Below the pieces are notes generated by a model, which ran no database searches, was not told the origin of the DNA, and was given only the letters and a program-made list of their open reading frames with translations. Position numbers and translations under genes: made by a program. Of a stretch of DNA of 64,000 bases, positions 5,791 through 58,633 are shown piece by piece (position 1 is the stretch's first letter; each line of letters starts with the position of its first letter). The stretch is from Corynebacterium cystitidis (GTDB lineage: Bacteria > Actinomycetota > Actinomycetes > Mycobacteriales > Mycobacteriaceae). Location: contig NZ_LT906473.1 of NCBI RefSeq assembly GCF_900187295.1, positions 2,790,001-2,854,000 of the forward strand. Reading direction: 5' to 3'.

Positions 5791-5921
5791 TGCAGCTCTC
5801 CAGAAAAGCGGTGGTTCCCTCGTCGATAAGCGAGTCCTGCTCGCACTCCCTCATGCACCAATCCCACAACAACTCGTTACCAGGCATGACAAAGGCACCA
5901 ACCAAAAACTGAGCATGAAAA

Positions 5922-5957
5922 AGCCCGCACGAACACTAAAACGTGTCCATGCGGGCT
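5922..5957. terminator. Hairpin terminator downstream of the cold-shock gene
   Basis: Arms AGCCCGCA and TGCGGGCT flank a 20-base loop that itself pairs partly (ACAC/GTGT). It lies about 55 bases beyond the stop of the minus-strand cold-shock gene, and on that strand the 3' arm runs into a TTTTTC stretch. Confidence 0.6.
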
Positions 5958-6010
5958 GATTCTGAAAAGTCAGTGCAGCTCACAGCGCTATAGCCCCACC
6001 TAGGGGCGAA

Positions 6011-6214
6011 CTACAGTGCGCGTACCTGCTGAGCCTGTGGGCCCTTTGCGCCTTCGCCGACTTCGAACTCGACAGCCTGGCCGTCTTCAAGGTTGCGGTA
6101 GCCGCCGCCCTGGATTTCGGAGAAGTGCACGAACAGGTCGTCCGAGCCATCATCTGGAGCGATGAAGCCGTAGCCCTTGTCGCCGTTGAACCATTTCACA
6201 GTTCCCTGTGCCAT
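6011..6214 (-). CDS. cspA: Cold-shock protein, CspA family
   Basis: A 67-residue OB-fold single-stranded nucleic-acid binding protein that melts RNA structure and acts as an antiterminator or RNA chaperone. The whole protein is one CSD. RNP1 (KGYGFI) and RNP2 (DLFVHF) are intact, and the N-terminal GTVKWFN is canonical. The upstream frame is longer, but the family length and the [10 protein letters not shown] start fix the ATG at 6214. It stands alone with a 361-base upstream gap, fitting the long structured leaders of cold-shock genes. Confidence 0.95.
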
Positions 6215-6575
6215 ACAAATACCTATTTCTTGAGGTGGTGTACACCCACCAGCATGCTTCACTGATGAGCGAGTCGAGAGCACTCCACTAAAAATGACTC
6301 AAGCGAATCATCAGTAGGGCCCGCGTACGAATTTCCTGCGAGCGCTAAAAATCTTTAAAACTTTCAAACACCGTGCAATAAACCGCGACTACTTCTCAGT
6401 GTGTCACACATGTGGTGCCCGGTCAATCGGAGACAAGCAAGGACACCTGCGCGAAGCCCGGCTCTCCGGGCCAGGGCCGGACTCCTTCCACTCAGGCTGT
6501 TCCTAGGGCGGTAGAAAGCTCCCGCCCCACACTCAGTGCCTGAAACTGCTGCGCTTTAGCCATCCACCAGGCGAT
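6215..6575. other. Intergenic between pckG 3' end and cspA
   Basis: 361 bases with no gene. It includes a short GC hairpin (GCCCGG-CTCT-CCGGGC, 6456-6471) that may end pckG transcription, and the leader/promoter of the cold-shock gene. No clear T-run follows the hairpin. Confidence 0.4.
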
Positions 6576-8384
6576 TTAATCCTCCGCTAGCGCCTTTTTC
6601 ATCCTTTCGTGAGCGTCCCAGATCTCCTGTGGCAGGTTGTCAAACTGTGCAAGGTGCTCGCCTCGGTGCTCCATTTCCTGGCGCCAGCGGTCTTCGTCGA
6701 TACGCAGTACAGCGTCGAGGTCCTCATCGCTGATGTCCAAACCTTCCAAGTTCAACTCGCTCTTCTTCGGCAGCACGCCAACTGGGGTGTTTACTCCTTC
6801 GGCGCGACCTTCGCGGTAGTCGATCAGCCAGAGCAGGGCGCGCAGATTATCGCGGTAGCCGGGCCACAGGTAGTGGCCATCTTCTGGGTCGCGTTGGAAC
6901 CAGTTCACGTGGGCGAAGATGGGTTTATCTTCGACCTTTTCGAAGACGTTGAGCCAGTGTTGTGCGTAGTCCCCTTCCGGATAGGACATAAACGGGCGCA
7001 TAGACATTGGGTCGTAGCGCAGTTTACCGTCCATGCCCTCAGCGGCGAAGGTGGCCTCGGCGCCCAAGGTAAGGCCGTCGTAAACGCCTTCGGCAACGTC
7101 GGTGATAGCCCGGATTAATGGTTCACGGTCAGAAGCTCGGCCGCCGAAGATCACGGCGTCGATAGGCACGCCCGCTGGTTCGAAAGCGTCCGGGGCCACG
7201 GTGGTCACCTGCTCCAAGTCCACGGTGAAGCGACCATTGGGGTGGGTCCAGGTGCCGTCGAAGTCTGCGGTGATTTCTTCGCCGTTCCAGGCGATCCAGC
7301 CTTCGTCTGTGGGTGGCTCAGGTGTTTTACCTTCCCACCACACCTCGTGGGTGGAGGGATTGTAGGCCACGTTAGTGAAAATGGCGCCAGAGCCCTCCGC
7401 GATCGCGTGCAGTGCGGCGGGGTTGGTTTCTTCGTTCGTGTCCTTTGCCACGCCGAAGACCCCATCTTCAGGGTTCATCCCGTACAGGCGGCCATCCTCG
7501 CCAACCCACAGCCAGGCAATATCGTCGCCGTAGAAGTCCACACGGTAGCGGTCGCCCAGGGCGTCTGGTGGCAGCGTCATTGCCAGGTTGGTTTTGCCGG
7601 AGGCAGAGGGGAATCCGCCACAGATGCGGTAGGTACGCCCTGTTTCTTTATCGTGGATGCCCAGCAGCATGAACTGTTCTGCAAGGAACTTTTCGGAGCG
7701 CCACCCGTCGTAAGCAGCTTGGCGTAGCGCGTGGGCAATCTTGCCTAGCAGGGCATTGCCACCATAGGCGGAGCCGTAGTGCAAAATCATGCGTTGATCC
7801 GCGACGGTGGCAAAAAGCCGCTGGTCATCATCGGTGCCTTGGCCGAGATTGTCAAGGTCGCCGGTCACGTGCACGCCCCGGACAAAGAAGTTCGGATCCT
7901 CCAGGCCGTTGAGGTATTCGATACCAACACGGGCCATGCGCATCATCTGCAGCACCACGTTGCGATCATCGGTCAGTTCCACACCCGCTGCATACGAGGC
8001 CAGCGGGTTCCCGGGCACTGCCATCAGGTAGGGCACCACATACATAGTTTTGCCTGCCGACGCGCCCTTCATGCGTTGACGTAGTGTTTCTACAGTTTCC
8101 TCACCGTCACGCCAGTTGTTGTAAACACCCTTGTCTTCAGGCCTTGAGGTTGCCACGACTGTGCGCTCTTCGGAGCGGGCAGTGTCTTTGGCGTGTGAAC
8201 GGGAGAAGTACCGCCCGCGTCCTGCTGGCTGAAGGCTGCCGTCTTCCAGCGACTCGTCAATGAGGCGCTGGTTGTCTGCGGCTGACACGAGTTCGATATT
8301 GGCGGGTTGGGTAATTGCTGCCCATTCCTCGACAAATTGGGCGATTGCTGGGTTGGGGATATCTACAGCGTAGGGGCTGTCCAT
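6576..8384 (-). CDS. pckG: Phosphoenolpyruvate carboxykinase (GTP) family protein with altered active site
   Basis: A 602-residue cytosolic protein of the GTP-type PEPCK family, which interconverts oxaloacetate and PEP in gluconeogenesis. Family blocks are seen in order: YVVPYLMA, GSAYGGNALLGK (about residue 205), FPSASGKTNLAM P-loop (about 257), GDDIAW (about 285), HPNGRF, FGGRASD, NWFQRDPEDGHYLWPGY. Length and order are normal. Several residues differ from the canonical family as I recall it: GKK reads GKI, AEHM reads AEQF, the P-loop Cys (SACGKT) is Ser, and GGRR reads GGRA. The first two are the usual Mn ligands. AGGAGG sits just upstream of the ATG. It may be a divergent paralogue with changed activity. 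Confidence 0.85.
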   Translation of the reverse strand: MDSPYAVDIPNPAIAQFVEEWAAITQPANIELVSAADNQRLIDESLEDGSLQPAGRGRYFSRSHAKDTARSEERTVVATSRPEDKGVYNNWRDGEETVETLRQRMKGASAGKTMYVVPYLMAVPGNPLASYAAGVELTDDRNVVLQMMRMARVGIEYLNGLEDPNFFVRGVHVTGDLDNLGQGTDDDQRLFATVADQRMILHYGSAYGGNALLGKIAHALRQAAYDGWRSEKFLAEQFMLLGIHDKETGRTYRICGGFPSASGKTNLAMTLPPDALGDRYRVDFYGDDIAWLWVGEDGRLYGMNPEDGVFGVAKDTNEETNPAALHAIAEGSGAIFTNVAYNPSTHEVWWEGKTPEPPTDEGWIAWNGEEITADFDGTWTHPNGRFTVDLEQVTTVAPDAFEPAGVPIDAVIFGGRASDREPLIRAITDVAEGVYDGLTLGAEATFAAEGMDGKLRYDPMSMRPFMSYPEGDYAQHWLNVFEKVEDKPIFAHVNWFQRDPEDGHYLWPGYRDNLRALLWLIDYREGRAEGVNTPVGVLPKKSELNLEGLDISDEDLDAVLRIDEDRWRQEMEHRGEHLAQFDNLPQEIWDAHERMKKALAED

Positions 8385-8505
8385 TGTGTCCTCCTAAAGA
8401 ACAAGCTCTGTAGTGGATTACTTCCAGTTGTCTGACTTGGTAATCCTCACTCAGTAACCCAGCATAGTTCAATAATCTGAACAAAGAACTTCAATTAGCC
8501 ATTTT

Positions 8506-8562
8506 CTTTTCGACGAGGACGGGCGCCACACCGCACAACGGACGAGGGCGCTCGTCGAAAAG
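8506..8562. repeat. Intergenic inverted repeat built from CTTTTCGACGAG arms
   Basis: Perfect 12-base arms, CTTTTCGACGAG (8506-8517) and CTCGTCGAAAAG (8551-8562), with a further GGGCGC pairing region inside. It lies between the pckG promoter and the 3' end of the zinc lipoprotein pseudogene and could terminate the latter. The arm style matches other palindromes in this window (16801-16860, 27319-27378). Confidence 0.7.
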
Positions 8563-8601
8563 CCGCATACAGCAGAGCGGGTAGGCAGCTGGTGTGGCTA
8601 C

Positions 8602-9535: not shown

Positions 9536-11017
9536 TTAGGCGCGAGTGGTCGTCGTTAAGCGAAGGTCAGCAATCGACACAGCAAGAGCGATAAGCATAA
9601 ACACCACGACTATTCCCCAACCAGTGAGAATCGCAGGAGTCCATCCAGCGTGGAGCTGAACCGAAAACGCAACACCAGTAATCACCGCAATACCCACAGT
9701 GGTACCAATGCGTTGACCGGTTTGTAAGACCCCACCGACGGAACCCGCATATTCTTGCGGAATGCGCGCCAGCGTCAGGGTTTGATTAGGCGTGATCACC
9801 ATGCCTTGGCCGGTGCCAAAAATGGCGAGTGTTCCGATGAGGATGAGTTCACTCCAACCAAAACGATCCACCCCGTACACCACAATCGCGCTGGACACGA
9901 TACCGGTTATAGCAAGCGAGATGCCCAGGATGACTACCGAGCGCCCCATGCGCGAGACCGCCCCGCCCGACCAGAAAGACGACAGCGCGCTAAGAATTGC
10001 CGAGGGAACCCCGATCAGCCCAGTGACCAGTGCCGTGTACCCCAAGCCCAACTGAAAGTAGAGCGCAACCAGTACCCACACTGAGGTGATACCCATAAAC
10101 CAGATAAAGGCGATCAGCGCGCCATTGCGGAAGGCCACTTGGCCGAAAACCCTTAGATCGACCATGGGTTTGATGTTGTTCGAGGGCTTGGCGCAGCGTT
10201 TCTCCCACCAGATCCACACAGCCACCAGGAGAGCGGCGAGTGGAATCAGGAACCGCACCCACGCAGTGCGCTGCGTGCCCACAAAGGGCAGCATCACAGC
10301 AAGAACAGCGCTACCCAGCAATAAGGCGCCGAGTGGATCGAGCTGACGCACCGTGTCGAAAAAAGACGTCGAGCGGCCCGTGGTGGCGTTGGTCAGTCGG
10401 GAGATTAAGGGGCGGGGAAACCACAGCAGGCCCAGCAGAATGCAGGCAATGCCGAAGGGGACGTTGATCAACATGGTCAGCCTCCAGCCGAGGTCCGGCC
10501 CGCCCGCTGAAATTAGAAAACCACCAACAACTGGCCCGATTGCCACGGCAATACCCACCGTGGAGCCGAAAATCCCGTAGGCGCGACCCCGTTCAGCACC
10601 AGTGAAATAGTGCTGAATCATGCCAATAGTCTGCGGATTGAAAAGCCCAGCACCGATGCCCATCACTAGGCGCGCAATGTTAAGCACAGTAGTGCTCGGT
10701 GCGAGGCCAGCCGCAACCGCGCCAAGCGTATAGACGGTCATGCCCAAGAGATAAAGCCCGCCGCGGCCCAGCATGTCCCCGGCGCGCCCGGCGGCAACCA
10801 AGACCACCCCAAAGGTAAGGGCGTAACCAGCCAGGATCCACTGAGACTGCCCAGGCGTGGCCCCCAATGAGTGTTGAATTGAGGGCAACGCCACGTTGAT
10901 GATGGAGACCGCGATTAACGCGACGAAAATTCCCAACAGCAGGACGGCAAGGATACGCCAGCGCCGCGGGTTCGGTTGGGCGTGAGAGGTTGATAAGTTA
11001 TTGGCGGTGGCGTTCAT
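9536..11017 (-). CDS. MFS drug exporter, DHA2 family (14 TMS)
   Basis: 493 residues with about fourteen hydrophobic segments, the layout of DHA2 (QacA/EmrB-type) multidrug/H+ antiporters. Motifs: LLGIFVALIAVSIINVALPSI in TM1, WILAGYALTFGVVLVAAGRA with GDMLGR (motif A) after TM2, RLVMGIGAGLFNPQ (motif B) and GPVVGGFLI (motif C, the antiporter motif). A frame-internal ATG at 11017 is preferred over 11026, because TACAAT ends seven bases before it and would give a leaderless transcript. Function as an exporter follows from motif C; substrate unknown. Confidence 0.85.
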   Translation of the reverse strand: MNATANNLSTSHAQPNPRRWRILAVLLLGIFVALIAVSIINVALPSIQHSLGATPGQSQWILAGYALTFGVVLVAAGRAGDMLGRGGLYLLGMTVYTLGAVAAGLAPSTTVLNIARLVMGIGAGLFNPQTIGMIQHYFTGAERGRAYGIFGSTVGIAVAIGPVVGGFLISAGGPDLGWRLTMLINVPFGIACILLGLLWFPRPLISRLTNATTGRSTSFFDTVRQLDPLGALLLGSAVLAVMLPFVGTQRTAWVRFLIPLAALLVAVWIWWEKRCAKPSNNIKPMVDLRVFGQVAFRNGALIAFIWFMGITSVWVLVALYFQLGLGYTALVTGLIGVPSAILSALSSFWSGGAVSRMGRSVVILGISLAITGIVSSAIVVYGVDRFGWSELILIGTLAIFGTGQGMVITPNQTLTLARIPQEYAGSVGGVLQTGQRIGTTVGIAVITGVAFSVQLHAGWTPAILTGWGIVVVFMLIALAVSIADLRLTTTTRA

Positions 11018-11194: not shown

Positions 11195-14167
11195 ATGACG
11201 AACGCGCAAGAAGGACCTGATTTCCGCTATTCGGCGGGGCTTGCTAACACGATTGAGAAGAAGTGGCAGAAGTACTGGGCTGAACAGGGCACTTTCCACG
11301 CTCCGAACCCGGTGGGTGATTTAGCTACCGGCGGCGAGTTGCCGAAGGAGAAGCTCAACGTGCAGGACATGTTCCCGTACCCGTCGGGCGCGGGCCTGCA
11401 TGTGGGCCACCCGCTGGGCTATATCGCCACCGACGTGTTTGCGCGTTACCACCGCATGCAGGGCAAGAATGTGCTGCATACGTTGGGTTATGATGCGTTC
11501 GGTCTGCCTGCGGAGCAGTACGCAATCCAGACGGGCACCCACCCGCGCACGACAACCATGACCAATATTGAGAACATGGAGCGCCAGCTCGGTGCGCTGG
11601 GTCTGGGCCACGATAAGCGTCGCGCGGTGGCCACCACTGACCCGGAGTTTTATAAGTGGACGCAGTGGATTTTCCTGCAGATTTACAACGCGTGGTTTGA
11701 TGAGGAGCAGCAGAAGGCCCGCCCTGTCGCTGAGCTTATCGACGAATTATCCTCCGGTGCTCGTACCACTAAGGATGGCCGGGAATTTGCTTCGCTTTCT
11801 CCGGAGGAGCAGCGCGCTGCTGTTGATGAGTTCCGCCTGGTGTACTTGAGCGAGTCTATGGTGAATTGGTGCCCCGGCTTGGGTACTGTGCTGGCCAACG
11901 AGGAGGTTACGGCCGATGGCAGGTCGGAGCGTGGCAACTTCCCGGTGTTCCGGAAGCGTCTGCGCCAGTGGATGATGCGGATTACTGCCTACTCGGACCG
12001 GTTGTTGGATGATCTTGAGCTGTTGGATTGGCCGGAGAAGGTCAAGGCTATGCAGCGCAATTGGATTGGCCGTTCCCGTGGTGCGGAGGTGGTCTTCCTG
12101 GCGGAAGACCACGGAGCCGGAGGTCACGGGGGGCAAGGCACGGCTGCCGGTGATCGCGAAGATTCACTTTCTGCCGGTGATCGCGAGGATTCACTTTCTG
12201 CCGGTGATCGCGAGGATTCACTTTCTGCCGGTGATCGCGAGGAACGAGCGATCACCGTGTTCACCACCCGCGCCGATACTCTCTTTGGCGCTACCTATGT
12301 TTCTTTGGCGCCGGAACATGAGCTCGTCGATAAGCTTACTGCGGATTCCTTCCCTGCTGGCACGAACCCGAAGTGGACCTACGGCTGCGCCACTCCTGCC
12401 GAGGCGGTGCAGAAGTATTTGCGCGATATCGCGGCTAAGTCGGATCTGGAGCGCCAGGAAAACAAGGACAAGACTGGTGTGTTCCTGGGCACTTTTGCCA
12501 CCAACCCAGTCAGCGGCGAGCAGGTGCCGATTTTCATCGCGGATTATGTGCTTACCGGCTACGGTACGGGTGCGATTATGGCTGTGCCCGCCCATGATGA
12601 GCGTGACTATGAGTTCGCCACTGAGTTTGAGTTGCCGATCATCCCTGTGCTCGACGGAGACATCTCTGAGCAGGCGTTTGTTGGCGATGCCCCACACATT
12701 AACTCCGCTAATGACCGCGGCCTGGACTTAAACGGCATGGGCCTCGACGAGGCGATTTCTACCACAATTGATTGGTTGGTCGCCGAAGGTGCGGGTGAGG
12801 AGAAGATTCAGTACAAGCTGCGTGACTGGCTGTTTGCCCGCCAGCGTTATTGGGGTGAGCCATTCCCCATTGTGTACGACGAAGCCGGTAATGCCCACGC
12901 TCTGCCTGAATCGATGTTGCCTGTGGAGCTGCCGGAGGTGGAAGATTACAAGCCTGTTTCCTTCGACCCAGACGATATTGATTCTGAGCCCTCTCCCCCG
13001 TTGGCCAAGGCCACTGAGTGGGTCAATGTTGAGCTTGACTTGGGTGATGGTCCGAAGCAGTACCGGCGTGATACCAATGTGATGCCTCAGTGGGCGGGTT
13101 CTTCCTGGTACCAGCTGCGCTACATTGATCCGACCAATGACGATGCATTTGTCGACCTAGAGAACGAGCGTTACTGGACAGGCCCGCAGCCTGAGGTCCA
13201 CGGCGAGAATGACCCCGGCGGCGTTGACCTCTATGTTGGTGGTGTTGAGCATGCTGTGCTGCACCTGCTCTATTCGCGTTTTTGGCACAAAGTGCTCTTT
13301 GACCTGGGCCATGTGACCTCGAAGGAGCCGTACCGTCGCCTGTACAACCAGGGCTACATCCAGGCCTACGCCTACACGGATGCCCGAGGCGTGTACGTGC
13401 CAGCCGCCGAAGTGGAGGAAAAAGACGGCAAGTACTATTACGCCGGCAACGAAGTTGCCCAGGAGTACGGCAAGATGGGCAAGTCCCTGAAGAATGCCGT
13501 TGCCCCGGATGAGATCGGCGAAGAGTTTGGTGCGGACACCCTGCGCGTCTATGAGATGTCGATGGGCCCGTTGGATACGTCGCGCCCGTGGGCCACGAAG
13601 GATGTCGTCGGCGCGCACCGCTTCCTGCAGCGTTTGTGGCGTTTGCTTATCGACGAAGAAACCGGCGAACTGCTTGCCTCCGAGGAACCCCTCACCGATG
13701 AGGACAATAAGCACCTGCATCGCACCATCGCCGGTGTCACCGATGATTATGAGAACCTGCGCGATAATACTGTGGTGGCCAAGCTCATTGAGTACGTCAA
13801 TTATCTGACTAAGACCTACCCGGGTCCCGTGCCGCTGGAGGCTGTGGTTCCGCTGGTGCAGATGGTGTCTCCGCTGGCGCCGCATATCGCGGAGGAGTTG
13901 TGGCAGCGCCTCGGCCACACGGACACCATCACGTTTGAGCCTTTCCCTGTCGCAGAAGAGTCGTGGCTTGTCGACGACTCCGTGGAGCTTCCCGTGCAGA
14001 TCAACGGCAAGGTTCGCTCCCGCATAGAGGTGGCTACCGATGCGTCGAAAGACGAGATTGAGGCTACCGCGCGTGCCGACGAGAAAGTGGTTGAGCTGGT
14101 AGGTGACGGCACCATTGTGAAGGTGATTGTGGTGCCGGGCCGCATGGTGAACCTCGTGGTGAAATAG
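11195..14167 (+). CDS. leuS: Leucyl-tRNA synthetase with an internal tandem repeat
   Basis: 990 residues; charges tRNA-Leu. The class I signatures are HVGHPLGY (HIGH-type) and KMGKSLKN (KMSKS-type). The CP1 editing domain includes [16 protein letters not shown] and [19 protein letters not shown], with the conserved editing Asp. The catalytic zinc-type region and C-terminal VNGKVR-like segment ([12 protein letters not shown]) are present. Unusually, the start of CP1 carries the repeated nonapeptide AGDREDSLS three times (12146-12243), which accounts for part of the extra length over typical actinobacterial LeuRS. The ATG at 11195 follows TACACT by eight bases, suggesting a leaderless mRNA; an in-frame GTG lies at 11171. 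Confidence 0.97.
12146..12243 (+). repeat. 27-bp in-frame tandem repeat inside leuS
   Basis: Three full 27-base copies (12146-12172, 12173-12199, 12200-12226) and a 17-base partial copy (12227-12243). Copies 2 and 3 are identical; copy 1 differs by one base (GAA for GAG). Each encodes AGDREDSLS, so copy-number change would keep the reading frame. Confidence 0.95.
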
Positions 14168-15818: not shown

Positions 15819-16775
15819 TCATTCCACCTGCACTACCACGCGGCCCCGCCCGGTACCGGCCAGCAAGTTGGCCCCCACCTCAATGGCACCAGCTACATCA
15901 ACGGTTGCGGTAGAGCTTGTGAGCTTATCGACGTCCAGATGTGCAGCCAGTAAGTTCCACGCCTGATCACGCAGCTCAACCGGGGCATCAACGGAGTTCA
16001 CCCCAGCCAAATTCACACCTCGCAAGATAAATGGCAGCACGCTAGCTGGCAGGTCTGCACCCGCCGCCAAACCACACGCTGCCACCGTGCCACCCCAGGT
16101 GATCTGCGATAACACATTGGCCAGCGGTGTAGAACCAAGGGTGTCCACAGCACCGGCAAAGCGTGCTTTCTGTAAGGGCTTGCCAGCTTCTTCGAAATCA
16201 GCACGGTCAATCACATCGCTCGCCCCTAACTCTTTGAGCCAGTCTTTGTGGTCGTCGATACGCCCGCTAGCAGCGACCACCTCAATGCCTTGGGCTGCCA
16301 GAAGCTGCACCGCGATCGAACCAACCCCGCCGGTGGCACCAGTGACAAGCACCGGGCCAGCTTTGCCAACATCATGAAGCGCTAGTATGCACAGCGCTGC
16401 GGTATAACCAGCTGTTCCTATCGCTGCGGCTGTCCATTCATCAAAGCGCTCTGGCACGCAGGTGACGTACTCGGCGTCGATCTTCATCTGCGGCGTATAT
16501 CCACCATTGCGGCGCTCCCCGATCCCGTGGCCGTTGACTGTGACGAGGGTTCCGGGTTCAAACTTTGGAGATGTAACCACACGGCCTACGGCATCAATGC
16601 CTGGCACAAGAGGTAGGGTGCGTACCACGCCTTTGCTGCCGGCCAGGGCCATGCCGTCTTTGTAGTTGACGGAGGAATGGGTGATATTGATCAGGGTGTC
16701 GCCCTCACCGGCGTGCTCTGCGGCGGTGTCAACAAGTTGTGGGCCATTGTTAGTTATCAGCAGTGTGCGAGTCAT
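15819..16775 (-). CDS. YhdH/AcuI-type zinc-independent medium-chain reductase
   Basis: 318 residues of the MDR superfamily, quinone-oxidoreductase/acrylyl-CoA-reductase branch. Diagnostic blocks are NYKDGMALAGSKGVVR, LVPGIDAVGRV, GTAGYTAALCI, VLVTGATGGVGSIAVQLLAA (NADPH-binding), LGASDVIDR and a C-terminal GRGRVVVQV. Catalytic zinc ligands are absent, as in this branch. It probably reduces acryloyl-CoA or related enones with NADPH. The start at MTRTLLI matches the family; an ATG seven codons earlier (16796) is possible and would be nearly leaderless. Confidence 0.88.
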   Translation of the reverse strand: MTRTLLITNNGPQLVDTAAEHAGEGDTLINITHSSVNYKDGMALAGSKGVVRTLPLVPGIDAVGRVVTSPKFEPGTLVTVNGHGIGERRNGGYTPQMKIDAEYVTCVPERFDEWTAAAIGTAGYTAALCILALHDVGKAGPVLVTGATGGVGSIAVQLLAAQGIEVVAASGRIDDHKDWLKELGASDVIDRADFEEAGKPLQKARFAGAVDTLGSTPLANVLSQITWGGTVAACGLAAGADLPASVLPFILRGVNLAGVNSVDAPVELRDQAWNLLAAHLDVDKLTSSTATVDVAGAIEVGANLLAGTGRGRVVVQVE

Positions 16776-16890: not shown

Positions 16891-17838
16891 CTAAAGTTGG
16901 TTGAGCAACCAACCAATCAGGTGTTTGCCCACCTCTGTGGGCTGCAGCGCACCAGAAAGCGCGTTTTGCTTCTCTAACCCCAACAACCCGCGGAGATCCT
17001 TATTCAAAGAGCTGGTTGGGGTGACATGCCCACCAGTCATATCGTGGATCACCTGGGAATAAGCATTATCAAAATCCGCAGCGGCCACACCCAGATACCC
17101 AGCCACCTGGGACTGCCCAACCAGCGCAAAAAGTGCACTCACCACCGCCTCAATCTGGTGGGTGGAGTTAAAAGCATAAGGAAAATTACGGTCCACCCAG
17201 CGCAAATACTCGGAGGAGTTTTCAAGACAATCCTCACCGCGCTCAGTTAAATACAGCGCATCAGTATCAAAACGGGCCAGCCGCATATCTGTAATCAGCT
17301 TCACCAACGAGGACGCCGCCCGTTCCGGCTCACCGTCTGCTACAAAGCCCCGCTCCAACGGCACTGTCTGCAGCGCAGAACCAATGGGAACCTTGGGGTA
17401 GTCCAGTGGCCCGGCCGCAAGCTCGGTTAGTACAGGATCGCAGGTGGCGGCGAGTTCTTCGTCGATAAGCGCGCGCATCTCGTCGGAAAGCTCTGTATAG
17501 CGCCCCAGGTCAGCGGCCTGGATGATCGGTGCCAGGCGGGGATAGCCCTGCGCAAGCACATCGAAAAACCCCATCTCGCCCTGCACAGCTACCGAAATCC
17601 GGACCTCACCCTGCTCTAGGTAAAATGTCGCGCCGGGGCTACTTAAGGCCTCGCCGATATCCTCGACGGTGGTGCCGCCGGGCTCGACGGTGAATTGCCA
17701 CGTGGCCTCGACGAGCTCAAACAGTGGGCTAAGTACGCGCTGCAGCTGGTTTGCGCTGAGGTCAGTGGGAACTGTCATTGTGTGTTGGACGGGAGGCTCG
17801 GCGCCTGCAAGATCGAGGAACAATGTGGTGTCGGTCAT
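16891..17838 (-). CDS. Hypothetical protein related to pRiA4b ORF-3-like proteins
   Basis: 315 residues, soluble. The N-terminal 55 residues (LFLDLAGAEPPVQHTMTVP, then a beta-alpha pattern to FELVEATWQFTVEP) look like the start of a pRiA4b ORF-3-like domain and like the second gene of this kind at 19206-20483. The remainder is helical with no recognisable catalytic motif. The longer upstream frame is ignored because MTDTTLFLDL matches the domain start. Confidence 0.6.
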   Translation of the reverse strand: MTDTTLFLDLAGAEPPVQHTMTVPTDLSANQLQRVLSPLFELVEATWQFTVEPGGTTVEDIGEALSSPGATFYLEQGEVRISVAVQGEMGFFDVLAQGYPRLAPIIQAADLGRYTELSDEMRALIDEELAATCDPVLTELAAGPLDYPKVPIGSALQTVPLERGFVADGEPERAASSLVKLITDMRLARFDTDALYLTERGEDCLENSSEYLRWVDRNFPYAFNSTHQIEAVVSALFALVGQSQVAGYLGVAAADFDNAYSQVIHDMTGGHVTPTSSLNKDLRGLLGLEKQNALSGALQPTEVGKHLIGWLLNQL

Positions 17839-41204: not shown

Positions 41205-41309
41205 GTTTCGGCTTTTCGCTTATCGACGATCCACAGGTCCCAGCTGCCACCGGGTGAGGCCGGCGTGCAGCCTCCGGGCTTGAACGGATCACATGACAAC
41301 AGCATTATT

Positions 41310-46758: not shown

Positions 46759-48094
46759 CTAGCATCTTGCCGCGCTGTTCTGGCAGGGTAAAGGCGGCTA
46801 CCGCTGCGATCATAAAAGCGGAGGCGAACACCGCAAACACAGCCGCTTGATTACCAAAAGCCAAAAGCGGCGGAACGATCAACGGTGCCAAGATCGAGCC
46901 GATGCGGCCAAAAGCTGCTGCTGCCCCTGTACCGGTGGCGCGGATGGCGGTGGGGTAGAGCTCCGGGCCAATCGCGTAAAGCGCTCCCCACGCACCCAAA
47001 TTGAAAAAGGAGAGCAGACAACCGGCCGCGATGATCTGCCATTCCGCGGTGGCCAACCCGTACAGCCCTGCGCTGACAGCGGAACCTACGAGGAACACGG
47101 ACAGTGTCACGCGCCGGCCCCACACCTCAATCAACCAACCTGCCATCGCATATCCCGGGAGCTGCGCCAGGGTAATTATCAAGGTGAATGTAAAGGAGCG
47201 CACCAGGGTGAAACCCTGGTCTACCAGCAAGGAGGGAATCCAGGTGAAGGCTCCGTAGTAGGCGAGCGATACCCCGAACCACACGATCCACAAAGCCAGC
47301 GTGCGTTTCCTCATGTCGCGGCCCCACATGCCGCCGGTGAGGTGTTCTTCTGTTTGGGCAGTGGTGAGCGGGTCATAGTAGGCCGGATCCACGTCCTTTT
47401 CAAAGGAGCGCACCACTTCCTCGGCCTCGTCGTAACGCCCCTTCTGCTCCAAAAAGCGCACGGATTCTGGCATCTTCATGCGCACATAAAGCGCATACAG
47501 GGCGGGGACGGCGCCCAGGGCAAGGCCCCAGCGCCACCCATTTTCGCCTTCTGCGACTACGAAAGTGCCGATCACCGCCGCCAGAATCCAGCCAACCGCC
47601 CAGAATGCTTCAAGCCACACCACCATGCGGCCGCGCACTTTGCGCGGGGCAAACTCGCTAACCAACGTAGAGGCCACGGGAAGTTCAGCTCCCAAACCTA
47701 AGCCGGTAAGAAAGCGGAACACCAGCAGCACCGCCACAGAGACGGCCAAGGCCGAGGCGCCAGTGGCCAGGCCGTAGACCAGCAGTGTTAGGGCAAAAAC
47801 TTGGCGGCGCCCGATCTTGTCTGCAAGTAATCCGCCCAGACTTGCACCAATCGCCATGCCAATAAAACCAACTGAGGCAATCCAGCTCGTGGTGGTTTTA
47901 TCAAGGTCCCAATGGATGGCAAGGGCTGCGATCACGAAAGAGACCAGCCCCACGTCCATCGCGTCGAGTGCCCAGCCAATTCCGGAGCCGACCAGCAGCT
48001 TCCGGTGCTTAGGGGTGACGGGCAGGCGGTCAAGCCGTTCAGCGCGCGTCAGGCCCTGTTCGTTGGCCAGGCCCTGTTCTTTTGTGGTAGTCAC
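46754..48094 (-). CDS. MFS transporter, NiaP-like (nicotinate/aromatic acid type)
   Basis: 446 residues, about twelve helices. Features are GSGIGWALDAMDVGLVSFVI in TM1, LLADKIGRRQVFAL (motif A), RFLTGLGLGAELPVASTLVS, EFAPRKVRGRMVVWLEAFWA, MPESVRFLEQKGRY, and TM7-8 text SLAYYGAFTWIPSLLVDQGF that resembles NiaP niacin carriers. The substrate could also be another small aromatic acid. The N-terminus repeats Glu-Gln-Gly-Leu from a duplicated 12-base block. Confidence 0.85.
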   Translation of the reverse strand: MTTTKEQGLANEQGLTRAERLDRLPVTPKHRKLLVGSGIGWALDAMDVGLVSFVIAALAIHWDLDKTTTSWIASVGFIGMAIGASLGGLLADKIGRRQVFALTLLVYGLATGASALAVSVAVLLVFRFLTGLGLGAELPVASTLVSEFAPRKVRGRMVVWLEAFWAVGWILAAVIGTFVVAEGENGWRWGLALGAVPALYALYVRMKMPESVRFLEQKGRYDEAEEVVRSFEKDVDPAYYDPLTTAQTEEHLTGGMWGRDMRKRTLALWIVWFGVSLAYYGAFTWIPSLLVDQGFTLVRSFTFTLIITLAQLPGYAMAGWLIEVWGRRVTLSVFLVGSAVSAGLYGLATAEWQIIAAGCLLSFFNLGAWGALYAIGPELYPTAIRATGTGAAAAFGRIGSILAPLIVPPLLAFGNQAAVFAVFASAFMIAAVAAFTLPEQRGKMLD

Positions 48095-48230: not shown

Positions 48231-50585
48231 TCAGTATGAGGACCTGAATCTGCGCAGGCGCAGCGAATTGCTCACCACAAATACGGAGCTAAACGCCATC
48301 GCGATACCGGCGAGCATCGGGTTGAGCAAGCCCAACGCTGCTACCGGGATAAGCACCACATTGTAGGCGAATGCCCAGAACAAGTTGCCTTTGATTGTGC
48401 CGAGGGTTTTCCGGGAAAGGCGGATGGCATCAACGGCGCTGCGCAGGTCATTGTTCATCAGGGTGATGTCTGAAGCTTCGATGGCTACGTCGGTTCCGGC
48501 ACCCATCGCAAGGCCAAGATCGGCGGTGGCCAAGGCAGCTGCATCATTGACCCCATCACCGACCATGGCCACGTGTTTGCCTTCGCCCTGGAGACGGCGC
48601 ACAACGTTGACCTTATCTTCCGGTATGACCTCAGCGATCACATTCTGGGCCGCCACACCGACCTCCGCCGCGACGGCTTCGGCAGCGCCCCGGTTATCGC
48701 CGGTCAGAAGGTAGGGGGTCAGCCCTAGCTCCTGAAAGTGGTGGACTGCCTCTGCGGAGGTGTCTTTGATGGTGTCACGTACGGTGATGGTGCCGATCGC
48801 CTCGTCGTTACGCGTCACGACGACTGGCGTGCCACCCGCCTGTTGTGCCTGATCAAAGGCCTGCTGCAGTTTACCGAGTGGCGCAGCGGGGCGGCCAACC
48901 ACGATGCGGTCCTCGCCGACCATGCCGGATACTCCAACACCTGGCTCGTTCTGGAAACTGGTCGCCGTCAGTTCCTCCGCCGGTTCCATCGAGGAACGAG
49001 TTGACTGAGACGCACGCACGATCGCCTGTGCTATCGGGTGTTCGGAGCCTGCCTCGATGGTGGCAGCAAGAGCCAATACTTCTTCGTTTGTGCAGCCTTC
49101 TGCGGCGGCGATGTGGGTTACGTTCATCTCACCGGAGGTGACGGTGCCGGTCTTGTCCAGCACGATGGTGTCTGCCTGACGGGTAGATTCAAGGATTTCG
49201 GGTCCTTTAATCAATAGGCCCATTTGGGCGCCGCGGCCGGTGCCCACCAGAATAGCGGTCGGCGTTGCCAAGCCGAGAGCACATGGGCAGGCGATGATCA
49301 GCACTGCGACAGCGGCGGTGAACGCGTGGGCCAGTTCGTGGCCCACCAGCAAGTGGCCGATCAGCGTGAGGATCGCGATGATAATCACGACTGGGACGAA
49401 GATCGCTGAGATGCGGTCTACGAGTCGCTCCACCGGGGCCTTACCGGCCTGCGCGTCTGACACCAGCTTGGCCATCTGGCTCAACGTAGTCTCGGCGCCA
49501 ACACGCGTAGCCTCCACGATGAGCCGGCCCGAGGTATTCAAGGTGGCACCGGTGACGGTGTCATCGGCCGTGACCTCCACGGGTACGGACTCGCCGGTGA
49601 GCATGGACTCGTCGACAGCAGAGCTGCCGTCGACCACGTGCCCATCGGTGGCGATCTTCTCACCCGGGCGCACGATAAACCGATCGCCTACCTGCAGCTG
49701 CGCAATCGGGACGCGTACCTCAGCGCCATCGCGGATCACTGCAGCGTCCTTGGCACCCATGTTCAACAAGTCACGCAGGGCTTCCGACGAATGCCCCTTC
49801 GCTTTCGTCTCAAACCAACGTCCCAGCAACAGGAAAGTAATCACCACTGCGGTGGTTTCCAAGTAGATCTCATCCATGCTGGTATCCGACGGCAGCAAGC
49901 TCATCTCCATGGTCATGCCCGTTACACCCGCGTTACCGAAGAACAACGCGTAAATACTCCACCAATACGCCGCCGAAGTACCCAGCGTGATCAAAGTATC
50001 CATGGTTGTTGCACCGTGCTTCAGGTTTGCCCAGGTTGCGCGGTGAAACGGCTCGCCGCCGTTGACATACACCAGCGTGGTCATCACAAGCACCGCCCAC
50101 TGCCAGTAGGTGAACTGCAGTGCCGGAATCATGGAGATCAGCATGATCGGCACAGTAAGAATCGCCGAGGAGATCAGCTTCGATTTTAGGCGGTCGGCTT
50201 CGTCGTTACGTGCGCTGTCAATCCGGTCCTGTGCACTTAACGACGATGGGCTGCCGCTCACTGTGCTTCCGGCACCAGTACTTCCGCCCTCGTCGTTCCC
50301 GGCCACTGCTGCGTCGGAGTTATCGTCGGCAAGCGTAAATGCGTCGTAACCAGCACCTTTCACCACATCAATGAGGTGGGTTTTGTCAACCTTAGCGGGA
50401 TCGTACTTAATGGTAGCCGTTTCGGTGGAGAAGTTCACCGAGGCATCCACTCCGTCAACCTTGTTCAACTTGCGTTGCACACGGTTCGAGCACGAGGTGC
50501 ACGTCATGCCAGTAACGCCGAGATCGATCTGCGCCAGGGTGACTGGTGCTGTTATCGGCGCGTCGGTGGTTTCGGGGTTGTTCAT
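48231..50585 (-). CDS. Copper-translocating P1B-type ATPase
   Basis: 784 residues. An N-terminal HMA domain with GMTCTSC (about residues 26-32), eight helices, the metal-path motif [16 protein letters not shown], phosphorylation motif [21 protein letters not shown], and C-terminal [20 protein letters not shown]. The CPC and the NMLA/GAFNA-type end ([12 protein letters not shown]) indicate Cu(I) export. It is the second gene after a CopZ-type chaperone (28-base gap), under a CsoR-like operator. Confidence 0.95.
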
Positions 50586-51408: not shown

Positions 51409-52276
51409 GATTCAATCCTCATTTCTGGGCGGGCGACGGGTTCAGGATTCACACGTGGCCTAAGCCGCGAGTTCGGGAAAGTTGGCGCAGGTAGGCGGGC
51501 CAATCCGTCGGGATCGTGGGAGATATAGCCATGTGTTTCGCCGAAGCGCTCACTGTGCTCCTCCCACTCACGACGGTACTGGGCCACCTCGTCATGGGTG
51601 CGGCCGATGAAGTTCCACCACATCACAATATCTTCGGCAAACGGTTCGCCGCCGATGAAAATTACGCGTGCCGACGCGTCACCTGGATTGTGCAGCGTCA
51701 GCTGTGTTTCACCAACACCTGTGTAAGCAAGCTCACGACGATTGACTGTCACACCTTCCAGCTCTACGGGGCCCTCGTCGACAAGCAACCCGTGTTCAAA
51801 GGTTGGATCCACATCGATGTGTACCGTCGCGCCGGGCTGAAGCCTGATTTCTGCGCCGACCAGCGGAGTAAAGGTAGGGATCGGCGAGGTCTGCCCAAAT
51901 AGTGAACCCATGAAAACTAGCGCGCGGGCGCCGTCGAGTTCGACAAACTCGGGGGCGTAGTGGTCGAAGTGGCGCTGGCCGTGGCGGGCCGAGTCCGGCA
52001 GAACGGTCCACAGCTGCACGCCATGCAGCACGGTGGTGGACTGAGTGGACACCTCAGAGTGGCAAATGCCGGCACCGGCTGTCATGAGATTGACCTCGCC
52101 GGGCAGAACAACTGCGTGATTGTCACCGGAATCGTGGTGTGTGATGTTGCCCGCGAAAAGCCAGGACACGGTCTGAAGCCCGGTGTGCGGGTGCGGTACA
52201 CGGTCATGGCGCGTGGCCCGCCGAGAGGAACCTCACGGGCGGTGATGATTTCTACTCCCGCTACGGTAGTGGACAT
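51405..52276 (-). pseudogene. Pirin family protein with an internal deletion
   Basis: The normal N-terminus is present from 52276 (STTVAGVEIITAREVPLGGP, then RAMTVY). The frame then jumps directly to PHPHTGLQTVSWLFAG in another frame. About 35 residues that pirins carry between them (RTLP...WCFxDHYGP...) are missing. The remainder to 51405 is intact (AGAGICHSEVS, the HxxxxxxE metal site, and the C-terminal cupin). The metal-binding PHPH lies right after the deletion. A shorter protein from an internal GTG is conceivable, but the N-terminal cupin is damaged. Confidence 0.75.
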
Positions 52277-52973: not shown

Positions 52974-52992
52974 TGCCCGCATCTTTCTGCAT

Positions 52993-53162: not shown

Positions 53163-53948
53163 ATGGCTAAGAACCCGTTGAGCAAGGGCTGGAAGTACTT
53201 GATGGCATCTTTCGATCAGAAGATCGACGAGAACGCTGATCCAAAGGTGCAGATTCAGCAGGCTGTCAACGCCGCGAAAGAGCAGCATCAACAGATTGCC
53301 CAGCAGGCAGCGAGTGTCATCGGAAATAAAAAGCAGCTGGAAATGCAGCTGGATCGCCTCCAGAAGTCTCAGGCGGACCACCAACAAAAGACTCGCACTG
53401 CTTTGCAGGCTGCGGATGAGGCTGCAGCCGCAGGCGACACTGAAAAGGCTGCGCAGTTCAATAACTCCGCTGAAGTTTTTGCTTCACAGCTAGTGTCTAT
53501 AGAGCAGGAGCTGGAAAACACTAAGCAGCTATATGCGGCGGCAGAACAGGCAGCGGCGCAGGCGGAGCAGCAGCAGAAGGAGTCTGAGGCACGGCTGCAG
53601 GGGCAGTTGGCCGAGGTGGATAAGCTGATGGCGCAGGCTGATCAGGCCGAAATGCAGGAGAAAACTGTTGAGGCGATGGATACGATTGGCCAGTTCAACT
53701 CTGATGATTCAGTTCCTACCCTTGATGGTGTGCGCGACAAGATTGAGCGTCGTTACGCGGATGCGTTGGGGCAGCAAGAGCTGATGGGTAATACGGTGAA
53801 TGACCGGATAGCGGAGATCACTGCGACCGGAACCGACATGAAGGCAGCCGCGAAGCTTGATGAGATTCGTGCGTCAATGAAAAGCGCTGGAGAGCTGACT
53901 TCTGGTACCACAACGGATCCTGCAACGGATACTGACGGCACCAAGTAA
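53163..53948 (+). CDS. PspA/IM30 family envelope-stress protein
   Basis: 261 residues, almost wholly coiled-coil. KGWKYLMASFDQKIDENADP, VQIQQAVNAAKEQHQQIAQQ and later KQLEMQLDRLQKSQADHQQK are family features. PspA oligomers protect the inner membrane. The C-terminus (SGTTTDPATDTDG) is a short Thr/Asp-rich tail. AGGAG lies 13 bases upstream. Confidence 0.9.
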   Translation: MAKNPLSKGWKYLMASFDQKIDENADPKVQIQQAVNAAKEQHQQIAQQAASVIGNKKQLEMQLDRLQKSQADHQQKTRTALQAADEAAAAGDTEKAAQFNNSAEVFASQLVSIEQELENTKQLYAAAEQAAAQAEQQQKESEARLQGQLAEVDKLMAQADQAEMQEKTVEAMDTIGQFNSDDSVPTLDGVRDKIERRYADALGQQELMGNTVNDRIAEITATGTDMKAAAKLDEIRASMKSAGELTSGTTTDPATDTDGTK

Positions 53949-55434: not shown

Positions 55435-55466
55435 AGTTAGTTACACCACTAACTAACCAACTAACT
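55435..55466. promoter_or_regulatory. Operator-like repeats upstream of the GntR-ABC operon
   Basis: AGTTAGT (55435-55441) faces ACTAACT (55448-55454) around TACACC, and a third ACTAACT lies at 55460-55466. They lie 18-49 bases upstream of the GntR start, as expected for autoregulation by a YtrA-type regulator. Confidence 0.6.
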
Positions 55467-55483
55467 GAGTGGAGGTGTTGAAA

Positions 55484-55858
55484 GTGGACAACACCGCCGA
55501 GCCGCTGTTCCGGCAGATTGCCACGCTGATCGAGGATTCGATTGTCGATGGAAACCTGCATCCCGGCCAGCAAGCCCCATCGACCAATGCGTTGGCCGCT
55601 TTTCATGACATTAATCCGGCCACCGCGCGCAAGGGACTGAATTTGCTTGTCGACGAAGGCGTGCTGGAAAAACGGCGTGGCCTTGGAATGTTTGTCACAG
55701 AGCATGCCCGAGAGGTGATCGTCGATAAGCGAAAACTGGACTTTGCAGCCCAATATTTAGCACCGCTTGTCGACGAAGCCGTCCGGCTGGGATACACCCG
55801 CGAGACCCTCTATGACCTGATCGATCGAGTTGCAGAAAGTCGAGGAATGTACCGATGA
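55484..55858 (+). CDS. GntR-family regulator, YtrA subfamily
   Basis: 124 residues. Winged HTH: PLFRQIATLIEDSIVDGNLH, PGQQAPSTNALAAFHDINPA, TARKGLNLLVDEGVLEKRRG, LGMFVTEHAREV. The C-terminal domain is only about 45 residues, the YtrA-type length. Starts GTG after GGAGGTG; its end overlaps the next gene by ATGA, so it controls the ABC genes it precedes. Confidence 0.9.
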   Translation: MDNTAEPLFRQIATLIEDSIVDGNLHPGQQAPSTNALAAFHDINPATARKGLNLLVDEGVLEKRRGLGMFVTEHAREVIVDKRKLDFAAQYLAPLVDEAVRLGYTRETLYDLIDRVAESRGMYR

Positions 55859-56688
55859 TCACCACGACCGACCTGACGAAAAGCTATAAGAACAAAGATG
55901 TTTTGACCGGTGTGACGTTCCACCTGGAACAAGGTGGGATCCACGGTCTGCTGGGGCGCAACGGTGTGGGCAAATCCACACTGTTGGGCATCCTGGCCGG
56001 CCAGATCAAGGCCGACGGTGGCACAGCCGAGGTTATGGGGTACGCCCCTTTCGATAATGCCGACCTGATGGATGAGGTGGTGCTGGCAGGCGTCGATACG
56101 CCTTATCCGGCAGCCTGGAGCGGCCAAGCAATTCTGCAGGCAGCCGCCCTACGCTACCCGCGGTGGGATGAGCAGGGCGCCAACCGCCTCGTGGGCGATT
56201 TCGCGCTAGAAGGCATGCTGGATACTAAGTATTCGGCGCTGTCGCGCGGGCAGAAAGCCATGATGGGAATCATCGTCGGCTTGGCCTCGGGCGCACCTTT
56301 GACGCTTCTCGACGAACCCTATGTGGGCCTGGACACTCACAATAGGCGCGTGTTCTACCAGCACTTACTCGAGATGAGCAACTCTGGCCGCACCTTCATG
56401 ATGGCCACGCATCACATCCACGAGTCGGCGAAGGTACTCGATTCTTTCATCATCCTGGGCCGTGACGGGAAGGTCGCCCGGCATGTGCACGTAGCTGACA
56501 TCGCCGATGAATACGTCTTGGCGTCCGCGCCCGACTTGGACGAGGTCCCTGGGGCGCTTGCTTTACGACGATCCCCTGAGCTAGACCGCGCCCTGATTCC
56601 CCGGGCGGAAGCCGCCAACCTCCCTGGTGCCCGCCTGGAAAACGCCGACCTTGACCAGATCATTGATGCCATGCTGGAGGCGAGTTAA
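55855..56688 (+). CDS. ABC transporter ATP-binding protein 1
   Basis: 277 residues. Walker A IHGLLGRNGVGKSTLLGILA, signature ALSRGQKAMMGI (LSRGQ, near LSGGQ), Walker B and D-loop TLLDEPYVGLDTHNRRV, H-loop MMATHHIHE. Single NBD, partner of the permease next to it. Clear paralogue of the 57791-58633 gene. Overlaps the GntR stop by four bases. Confidence 0.93.
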   Translation: MITTTDLTKSYKNKDVLTGVTFHLEQGGIHGLLGRNGVGKSTLLGILAGQIKADGGTAEVMGYAPFDNADLMDEVVLAGVDTPYPAAWSGQAILQAAALRYPRWDEQGANRLVGDFALEGMLDTKYSALSRGQKAMMGIIVGLASGAPLTLLDEPYVGLDTHNRRVFYQHLLEMSNSGRTFMMATHHIHESAKVLDSFIILGRDGKVARHVHVADIADEYVLASAPDLDEVPGALALRRSPELDRALIPRAEAANLPGARLENADLDQIIDAMLEAS

Positions 56689-57777
56689 ATGACGTACTTA
56701 GCATCGTCGTGGCAGCTGTGGAAGCTGCAGTTCAGGCAAGGAAGTGTCGGATCCTTGAGCCTGCGTTTTCTCCAGTGTTTTTCGATCTTTTTCTTGCTCA
56801 GCGCCTCTTTTGTCCAATCGTTGCTGTTGGCGATATTCGCGCCATTTCTAGTGGTGTTTTCTGTTTCGAATTCCTTGCTGCCGGACACTGGGATGTATCG
56901 AGCCTTCGGAATGGGCCGCAAGCGTGCGTACGCCCATGCGGCGTTAAGCGTTGTTCCTGTAGTAGCGCTGGTCAGTGTGCTCGTCCTGTGGTGGTTTCCG
57001 CCCAACTCGGCACTGATCGGTGTGGCGTCCGCGGTGGTTACCGGTGTCTTCGCAGTGTTGGTGGTGGATCCGCAGGCTGAGCGGAGTTTTCCCGGAGCTG
57101 ATGCAGCTGGCGTGACGCTTGCAAGATCCGGTGGTTTCGGGTGGGTCACGCTGTGGCGCAGGGTGCTTACCGGTTCAGTGGTTTTCGGCCTGTTCAACGT
57201 GGCCGCCCAACTGGTTTCCGGGATTGCTCCATGGGAGTGGCTGAGCACAACGTTGAACTCCGTCGTCGTGTTTGTTTTCTGGTTTTGGTTTGCATACATG
57301 CTGGCTCAGGCGGCGGGGGCTTGGAAAGCCTTTGGGCGCAGTCGCAGAGATTGGGTGTGCAACATTGTTGTGGCATCCCTGGTGGGCGCGATGCTCTTCG
57401 CCGCCACAGCGGTGGTGGTGCTGGGCATACTCTCCTTGGCGGGAGCCGTCCCAGCGGGTGTTGATTTCGCGCGGATCAGCGGGTTTACCTGGGCGACCAT
57501 TCCCGTGACAGTCGCTATCGCGCTGGCCAGCGTGGCGAGTGGGGCGTCGTCAAGCGCTATTGTCTTCTTCACGTCCATTGTGGCGTGGACTTTGCTGCGC
57601 GGAATGATCGCCGATGGGAACTCACCGCGCACCTTCTTCTGGTTTGCCCTGATCTTCGCCGCAGTGTTGTTTGTGGTAGCCGCGTTCCAGTTCTGGCGCA
57701 CGCTGACGGAACGTACCTCTTTGCAAACGTCCGCAGGTGACTATCGAGGAATAAACCAAACAAACCAAACAAACTAG
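56689..57777 (+). CDS. ABC transporter permease 1
   Basis: 362 residues with about eight to ten hydrophobic segments. No family name can be given; it is directly after the ATPase (zero-base gap, TAA-ATG), so it is the membrane partner. The C-terminus ends in a repeated Asn-Gln-Thr motif encoded by CAAACCAAA repeats at 57758-57776. Confidence 0.8.
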   Translation: MTYLASSWQLWKLQFRQGSVGSLSLRFLQCFSIFFLLSASFVQSLLLAIFAPFLVVFSVSNSLLPDTGMYRAFGMGRKRAYAHAALSVVPVVALVSVLVLWWFPPNSALIGVASAVVTGVFAVLVVDPQAERSFPGADAAGVTLARSGGFGWVTLWRRVLTGSVVFGLFNVAAQLVSGIAPWEWLSTTLNSVVVFVFWFWFAYMLAQAAGAWKAFGRSRRDWVCNIVVASLVGAMLFAATAVVVLGILSLAGAVPAGVDFARISGFTWATIPVTVAIALASVASGASSSAIVFFTSIVAWTLLRGMIADGNSPRTFFWFALIFAAVLFVVAAFQFWRTLTERTSLQTSAGDYRGINQTNQTN

Positions 57778-57790
57778 GAGTTAACGCACC

Positions 57791-58633
57791 ATGATCATTC
57801 ACGCGCATAACCTGGCAAAACACTTTGGCGACAACAGCGTGCTGCGTGGGCTGGACCTGAAAATCCCCCACGGTGGGATCCACGGTCTGCTCGGACGCAA
57901 CGGTGTGGGCAAGTCCACACTCCTTGGGCTGATTGCTGGCCAGATCAAACCCTCAAGTGGCGAGCTCACCGTCTTTGGTGAGACACCGTTTGACCGCGCC
58001 AGCGTGATGGACCGTGTTGTCTACGCTGGTATTGACGTGCCCTACCCCGGCTTTTGGACCATCAGCGATCTGCTTTCTGCCGCCGGGTCGCGCTACCCGC
58101 GGTGGGGCCGCGCCTACGCCAACACTCTGCTGACAGAGTTCGGCTTTAGCAACCGCCTGAGCACCCAGTATAAAGATCTCTCGCGCGGCGAGCGCTCCAT
58201 GATCGGCATCGTGATCGGCCTGGCCGCGGGGTCAGAACTGACGCTTCTCGACGAACCCTACGTGGGCCTTGATGTGCATAACCGTCAGGTGTTCTACCAC
58301 CACCTGCTGGAGGCCGCAGCTACTGGAGACCGCACATTCTTGCTAGCCACCCACCACATTGAGGAATCATCGAAGGTGCTGGATAGTTTCGCCATCCTGG
58401 GCCGTACTGGCGCGATCGACCAGCACTACCAGGTAGATAACCTTGCAGACGGGTACGTGATCGCCACCGCCCCCAACCTCCCTGAACTGCCGGGAATGTT
58501 AGCCCGGCGCAAAGAATCGGGTACTACTCGTGCCCTTGTGCCCCGCGAAATCGCTTTCGGCTTGGCACCATCGGTTCGCACACAGATTGCGGAGCTCGAC
58601 GACGTGATCGTTGCCCTCCTGGAGGAGTCATGA
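57791..58633 (+). CDS. ABC transporter ATP-binding protein 2
   Basis: 280 residues. Walker A IHGLLGRNGVGKSTLLGLIA, signature DLSRGERSMIGIV, Walker B TLLDEPYVGLDVHNRQV, H-loop LLATHHIEESSKVLDSF. The two NBDs share long identical stretches (LLGRNGVGKSTLLG, LTLLDEPYVGLD), showing that the ATPase/permease pair was duplicated. Overlaps the next gene by ATGA. Confidence 0.93.
   Translation: MIIHAHNLAKHFGDNSVLRGLDLKIPHGGIHGLLGRNGVGKSTLLGLIAGQIKPSSGELTVFGETPFDRASVMDRVVYAGIDVPYPGFWTISDLLSAAGSRYPRWGRAYANTLLTEFGFSNRLSTQYKDLSRGERSMIGIVIGLAAGSELTLLDEPYVGLDVHNRQVFYHHLLEAAATGDRTFLLATHHIEESSKVLDSFAILGRTGAIDQHYQVDNLADGYVIATAPNLPELPGMLARRKESGTTRALVPREIAFGLAPSVRTQIAELDDVIVALLEES

Follow-up and report, generated by a model that had tools for sequence, protein, structure and literature searches.

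GCKTNHCGACG, an abundant, dialect-forming word and candidate DNA uptake sequence of Corynebacterium

The DNA examined is a 64,000-nt window of Corynebacterium cystitidis (contig NZ_LT906473.1), whose genome is a single contig of 3,011,567 bases (G000), and the element in question is a short word that recurs within genes and outside them on both strands. In its strict form, the 12-mer GCTTNTCGACGA, it has 24 exact copies in the window, 13 on the plus strand and 11 on the minus; in 100 dinucleotide shuffles of the window the mean was 0.08 and the largest count 2. By simple gene calls, 16 copies are in the sense orientation: on the plus strand at 11734..11745, 13645..13656, 13966..13977, 20934..20945, 21021..21032, 25923..25934, 27715..27726, 55645..55656, 55765..55776, 56304..56315, and 58243..58254, and on the minus strand at 17459..17470, 19474..19485, 30979..30990, 32538..32549, and 51775..51786. 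Five are antisense (plus: 31572..31583; minus: 12324..12335, 29420..29431, 44911..44922, and 55719..55730), and three lie outside called genes (plus: 41218..41229; minus: 5820..5831 and 8552..8563). An initial annotation of this DNA had listed at least 23 copies; each of its 23 positions is an exact match, and the minus-strand copy at 44911 had been overlooked. Its account of the sites as a mixture of sense, antisense (at least four), and non-genic agrees with the split found here.

The 12-mer proposed in that annotation is real and far above chance, but too narrow: the fuller motif is GCKTNHCGACG, here termed dialect 1 (D1), of which the window contains 65 copies. Apart from the strict copies, D1 sites are found on the plus strand at 14071..14081, 15923..15933, 18300..18310, 20724..20734, 21900..21910, 23764..23774, 26904..26914, 32083..32093, 35304..35314, 38125..38135, 38353..38363, 43034..43044, 44334..44344, 45498..45508, 48812..48822, 51666..51676, 56560..56570, and 59664..59674. 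On the minus strand they occupy 2284..2294, 4111..4121, 4528..4538, 6695..6705, 9551..9561, 16253..16263, 17481..17491, 19862..19872, 23180..23190, 24775..24785, 25053..25063, 27636..27646, 32680..32690, 33398..33408, 35213..35223, 44181..44191, 47428..47438, 48803..48813, 50324..50334, 53748..53758, 56091..56101, 57545..57555, and 58882..58892. The flanks of the strict sites at 56304 and 58243 are alike, so the latter may derive from gene duplication; in the segment from 55469 to 59685, a short gene precedes two pairs of genes that look alike.

The consensus was drawn from the window together with twenty evenly spaced 20-kb stretches of the same genome (21 stretches, 464 kb), in which all one-base variants were counted and the pattern read backwards served as control. 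Position 3 accepts T or G, position 5 any base, and position 6 T, A, or C, and 286 of the 410 D1 sites have A at position 12; the reversed pattern has 13 copies in this sample. Most of the remaining single substitutions occur near the reversed-control level, the largest leftover excesses being those of A at position 1 (33 copies) and, at position 4, of C (25) or G (24). When the spacer is 0, 2, or 3 bases long, 14, 18, and 16 copies are present vs 16, 18, and 15 for the control. With a spacer of 4 bases instead of 1, 30 copies are present against 9 reversed. Genome-wide, D1 has 2455 copies (1244 + 1211) and its control 88 (50 + 38), and the strict word has 537 (281 forward + 256 reverse) with reversed controls of 0 and 1. 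The word is non-palindromic and directional, with a D1 density of approximately 1 per 1.1 kb that ranges from 0.55 to 1.30 per kb across all 21 stretches sampled, and the gaps between sites are near-exponential in length.

A single sense frame holds 194 of the 410 D1 sites. With the simple gene caller, however, the 464 kb contain 222 sense, 121 antisense, and 67 intergenic D1 sites (227, 124, and 59 with a permissive caller); the corresponding numbers of strict sites are 47, 33, and 14 with either caller. The caller covers 81 to 84% of the sequence, and the flanks of the intergenic sites show only a weak C at every third base, probably from genes that were missed; the intergenic share is therefore an upper bound. 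Synonymous codons were shuffled within genes such that both protein sequence and codon use were preserved. The strict word then averaged 1.1 sites in sense and 1.6 in antisense orientation (maxima 5 and 6; 200 shuffles) and D1 10.2 and 7.45 (maxima 18 and 15; 100 shuffles), far below the observed counts. The initial annotation had argued for selection on DNA and not on protein alone, and had named agreement with such a shuffle as what would refute it; the strict counts of 47 and 33 support its argument. The motif is thus supported as being under selection as DNA, independently of protein.

Polarity with respect to replication, a check proposed in the same annotation, is absent. Leading and lagging strands were assigned in each stretch from whether its GC skew is positive or negative, the skew being weak in several; the G-rich (leading) strand carries 216 D1 sites and the opposite strand 194 (binomial P 0.30). 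The FtsK-orienting polar sequences (KOPS), architecture-imparting sequences (AIMS), and Chi motifs are strand-biased, and comparable roles are disfavored by this lack of skew. A KOPS/FtsK-orienting or AIMS motif was rejected because strong replichore polarity was not found, and a role in segregation polarity on the same ground. Sites for parS and Noc are palindromic; the non-palindromic sequence and even spread of the present word exclude both, as the initial annotation had already stated for parS. Among the roles which that annotation had considered, uptake fits best, while segregation is disfavored.

Counts were extended to 242 Corynebacterium genomes and 199 other genomes of the order. D1 has 12 to 2554 copies per Corynebacterium genome and reaches at least 3 times its control in 177 of the 242, and at least 10 times in 128. 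It falls below 3 times control in 65 and is at or below control in 42. The strict word behaves similarly (0 to 707 copies per genome), and in the 174 genomes with at least 200 sites the forward share of D1 is 0.42 to 0.53. Outside the genus, the highest ratios are 4.5 (G308), 3.1 (G330), and 3.0 (G401) vs 27.9 in the C. cystitidis genome, and 70 loci of other genera (1.375 Mb) hold 76 D1 sites vs 70 for the control. The excess in G308 is of the GCGT type (22 vs 3 GCTT in 80 kb), and G401 has 11 vs 5 in 60 kb. Named Corynebacterium loci, each 12.6 to 21.9 kb long, were also counted: C. kefirresidentii has 16 D1 sites (control 3), C. yonathiae 14 (control 1), C. mastitidis 3 (control 0), and Ca. 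C. avicola 0, while Corynebacterium sp. ACRPS has 1 D1 site, yet 13 of a second dialect. By LepA, among the 80 named loci kept, C. lubricantis is the nearest named species (92% identity), and the ten nearest loci are all Corynebacterium, own-genome records possibly being excluded.

The second dialect was recognized in genomes poor in D1. Four of the first ten inspected (G001, G004, G096, and G027) carry a different word, GCTTNNCGATG, which is in register with D1 and often trailed by CC; in 34 kb of each, GC.T..CGATG has 21, 18, 11, and 14 copies vs 2, 1, 0, and 0 reversed. Genus-wide, GCTTNNCGATGNC reaches 398 to 1090 copies in each of 14 genomes, and three others have 167 to 179; counts of approximately 10 to 40 are usual in the rest, with an additional group at roughly 45 to 140. 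Thirteen of the 14 rich genomes are low in D1, the exception being G024, which retains a D1 residue (355 vs 116). On a midpoint-rooted tree of four tad-region proteins from 59 genomes, read for its topology and not for branch supports, D1 genomes are scattered over the genus, and two motif-free genomes are nested in the single clade formed by the 11 dialect-2 genomes; the remaining 16 motif-free genomes are distributed over several parts of the tree, a single deep clade accounting for seven. We infer that D1 is the ancestral dialect.

The dialects replace one another in place. In the com and tad region genes of 20 genomes, each D1 site was paired with each dialect-2 genome sharing the gene, and the dialect-2 word stands at the same aligned place and on the same strand in 97 of 656 pairs, compared with 3 of 3936 when places are shifted by 3, 6, or 9 bases. 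In motif-free genomes, the aligned places hold D1 in 15 of 922 cases and dialect 2 in 0 of 922. In the main sense frame, the change converts GAC to GAT, both encoding Asp, and is silent. Sharing of sites also depends on use of the dialect. At a protein identity of 0.6 to 0.7, pairs of D1 genomes share 30.5% of 656 sites, whereas D1 and motif-free genomes share 0 of 118; the corresponding values are 18.7% of 418 vs 0.6% of 159 at 0.55 to 0.6, and 12.4% of 178 vs 2.8% of 326 at 0.5 to 0.55. Sites are thus retained in genomes that use the dialect and have mostly disappeared from the others. A search for further dialects with nine templates in 114 kb each of the motif-free genomes G042, G131, G029, and G018 gave no word as strong as those in G000 or G001. 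Weaker words were found in G042 (e.g., 30 copies vs 0 or 1, compared with 70 vs 4 in G001), which may have a weak further dialect. In 80 kb of G127, the known cores and a few variants, the only words counted there, were near control.

Mobile DNA is poor in the motif. The C. cystitidis genome encodes four tyrosine recombinases, of which the two high-scoring were taken as XerC/D and the two lower-scoring as island integrases. In 542 kb (the 464 kb and 80 kb around both integrases, 2 kb being shared), these two integrases are located in the two longest gaps without a D1 site (17.4 and 9.2 kb), the chance of zero sites at genome density being 7e-7 and 6e-4, respectively; this is a directed test, since the 80 kb were chosen because of the integrases. 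The next-longest gap, 8.0 kb, is cut by the end of a stretch. Around 8 integrases in five other D1 genomes (12 kb each, 8 of 20 places initially chosen), 34 D1 sites were counted vs 64.6 expected, with 1 to 7 at each, whereas the com and tad loci of the same five genomes hold 147 vs 102.3 expected. Depletion in recently acquired DNA was therefore found around 10 integrases in 6 genomes. The 17.4-kb island (G000:C1:674970-692397; L237, L238) adjoins a gene resembling glutamine synthetase and, by eye, contains integrase, DNA methylase, and transposase-like genes.

Candidate machinery for DNA uptake is encoded in the C. cystitidis genome, where comEA adjoins comEC and a tad-like locus is also present. 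Matches to Pfam families were obtained for ComEA (HHH and SLBB), ComEC, the T2SSE ATPase, and the Flp gene (DUF4244). The TadF-like gene matches PF13400 below the cut-off, and the TadE- and TadZ-like genes have no Pfam match; like TadB and TadC, which lay outside the scan, they are named from gene order and appearance. Across the genus, ComEC is present in 80 of 80 genomes (40 high and 40 low in D1) and a T2SSE/Tad-type ATPase is above cut-off in 79 of them. In a panel of 69 genomes (28 D1, 11 dialect-2, and 30 motif-free) that was also searched for RecC, DprA is present in all 69 and a prepilin peptidase in 68, 66 of these above cut-off. The DprA matches of G029 and G112, two motif-free sisters on the tree, are much weaker than those of the other 67 genomes. 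In the motif-rich G090, ComEC is matched in two pieces, perhaps owing to a frameshift or sequencing error. TadA is divergent in the deep motif-free clade (G018, G007, G048, G080, G119, G142, and G241; L089, L090, and L110 to L114), and only one longer TadB/TadC-like frame was found there.

On the basis of these sequence data, GCKTNHCGACG(A) is quite probably a DNA uptake sequence (DUS) of Corynebacterium. This reading rests on a dense, sharp, non-palindromic, strand-neutral word selected as DNA, its in-place replacement between dialects, its absence from some lineages, and its scarcity around integrases. It is also probable that the word belongs to the first uptake sequence system found in Gram-positive bacteria, in which a self-recognition word that spans the genus and forms dialects is read by a Tad/Flp-pilus competence machinery; the system would have evolved independently of those of Neisseria and Haemophilus, and many Corynebacterium species would transform naturally in the wild.

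We infer uptake, a receptor, a biased drive, and an order of events as follows. A surface receptor that reads the sequence, probably tied to the Tad/Flp pilus, would bind motif-carrying DNA, which would travel via ComEA to ComEC and recombine with the aid of DprA. Preferential uptake of motif-bearing fragments would let alleles with a newly gained motif spread by biased transformation, and this could continue up to about one motif per kilobase, in either orientation and in any tolerant coding frame. A change in receptor specificity would then lead to a genome rewritten in the new dialect (CGACG to CGATG), whereas the loss of specificity or of uptake would let the motif decay.

Several observations weigh against this interpretation. 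ComEC, the T2SSE ATPase, DprA, and the prepilin peptidase are equally present in motif-free genomes; hence, no gene that tracks the motif was found among the competence and tad genes, and motif loss would have to mean lost specificity or regulation and not lost genes. Two draft assemblies run the other way: the motif-rich G094 (1509 copies) has a weak T2SSE match, and the dialect-2-rich G128 is without a prepilin-peptidase match. Alignments of TadE, TadF, and Flp, seen in part and by eye, displayed no dialect-linked feature. The swapped pairs are not independent, as they come from related genomes; 20 of 44 dialect-2 sites coincide with D1 sites, at 7 distinct places, two of which lie in lepA. 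C. lubricantis (L155), despite its 92% LepA identity, has only 2 D1 sites (control 0) in 14.6 kb, and scarcity near integrases would hold for any slowly acquired chromosomal motif. Finally, the matches listed in a literature search included no report of natural transformation in Corynebacterium. Nor did they include an uptake word in this genus, with preprints and most subscription journals lying outside the search; in the excerpts available, PMC5217627 mentions Corynebacterium only for CRISPR repeats and PMC12715929 only for defence and cinA genes.

The word could instead be the binding site of a protein with another task, such as nucleoid structure, recombination or repair, or chromosome marking, and be held by chromosomal selection and not by biased uptake. 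Conservation at homologous sites, near-exponential spacing over the chromosome, scarcity around integrases, and the lack of a discriminating competence gene are all compatible with such a site, whereas absence in several places on the tree and a dialect change throughout a clade would be odd for a core chromosome function, and strand skew is missing; on balance, this account is unlikely. An origin in biased mutation or repair, or a link to a methylase, is appreciably less plausible. The model for it is the highly iterated palindrome HIP1 of cyanobacteria, a very abundant, dispersed, lineage-specific palindrome. The Corynebacterium word resembles HIP1 in being abundant, dispersed, and lineage-variable but differs in being directional and having dialects, and a HIP1-type repeat was rejected because the word is not a palindrome. 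Most of its single substitutions are also near control, with a modest excess for a few. Under such a mutational process, phages and islands should gain the motif as well, yet integrase surroundings hold few sites and four phages, whose hosts may or may not use the motif, hold 10 D1 sites in 172 kb (reversed 2).

A dispersed, oriented word at roughly 1 per kb would suit a Chi-like hot spot of recombination, at which a recombination nuclease recognizes the word. In E. coli, Chi sites predominate on the leading strand and RecC is the Chi-reading subunit of RecBCD; here, the leading strand is not favored and RecC was found in 0 of the 69 genomes, in a search that covered RecC and not AdnAB or AddAB. 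RecBCD/Chi was rejected on this result, and we consider a hot spot of this kind highly improbable. The prominence of one sense frame could suggest that the word is a by-product of codon use and of frequent Leu-x-Asp-Glu/Asp peptides, a coding artefact that can be practically dismissed: the synonymous shuffles rule it out, antisense and intergenic sites are numerous, and the reversed pattern is at chance.

Read as an uptake sequence, the word has close parallels. To our knowledge, uptake sequences are known only from the Gram-negative Neisseriaceae and Pasteurellaceae, and we know of no earlier one in Gram-positives. The DUS of Neisseriaceae is likewise a short non-palindromic word with thousands of copies, dialects that follow phylogeny, and genomes that do without it; the available part of PMC3630211 gives counts of 1543 to 3770 per genome and five family genomes without an obvious DUS. 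Its receptor is the minor pilin ComP, according to excerpts of PMC6370729. The Corynebacterium word differs in its sequence, in belonging to Actinomycetota, in accompanying a Tad/Flp-type locus and not a type IVa pilus, and in being known from sequence alone. The uptake signal sequence (USS) of Pasteurellaceae (AAGTGCGGT and a variant), so far as the excerpted text describes it, is also an abundant, dispersed uptake word with subtypes, although the two words have no sequence in common; its receptor, too, is still only predicted in the portion available of PMC12616744. A precedent for the machinery is offered by the actinobacterium Micrococcus luteus, in which Tad/Flp pili and ComEC serve DNA uptake and transformation and the same kinds of genes (tad, comEA, and comEC) are found; PMC4322843, from which these points are excerpted, describes the combination of tad and com genes as common among actinobacteria. 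The difference is that the term "uptake sequence" is absent from PMC4322843 and PMC6667448.

If the uptake reading is true, Corynebacterium would represent an independent case of self-recognition in Actinomycetota that employs a different pilus and includes a dialect switch placed on a tree as well as several losses. The word would also be of practical use for the transformation of Corynebacterium and as a predictor of the species among which genes are exchanged, and it would become possible to test how self-recognition in bacterial sex originates, is driven, and decays.

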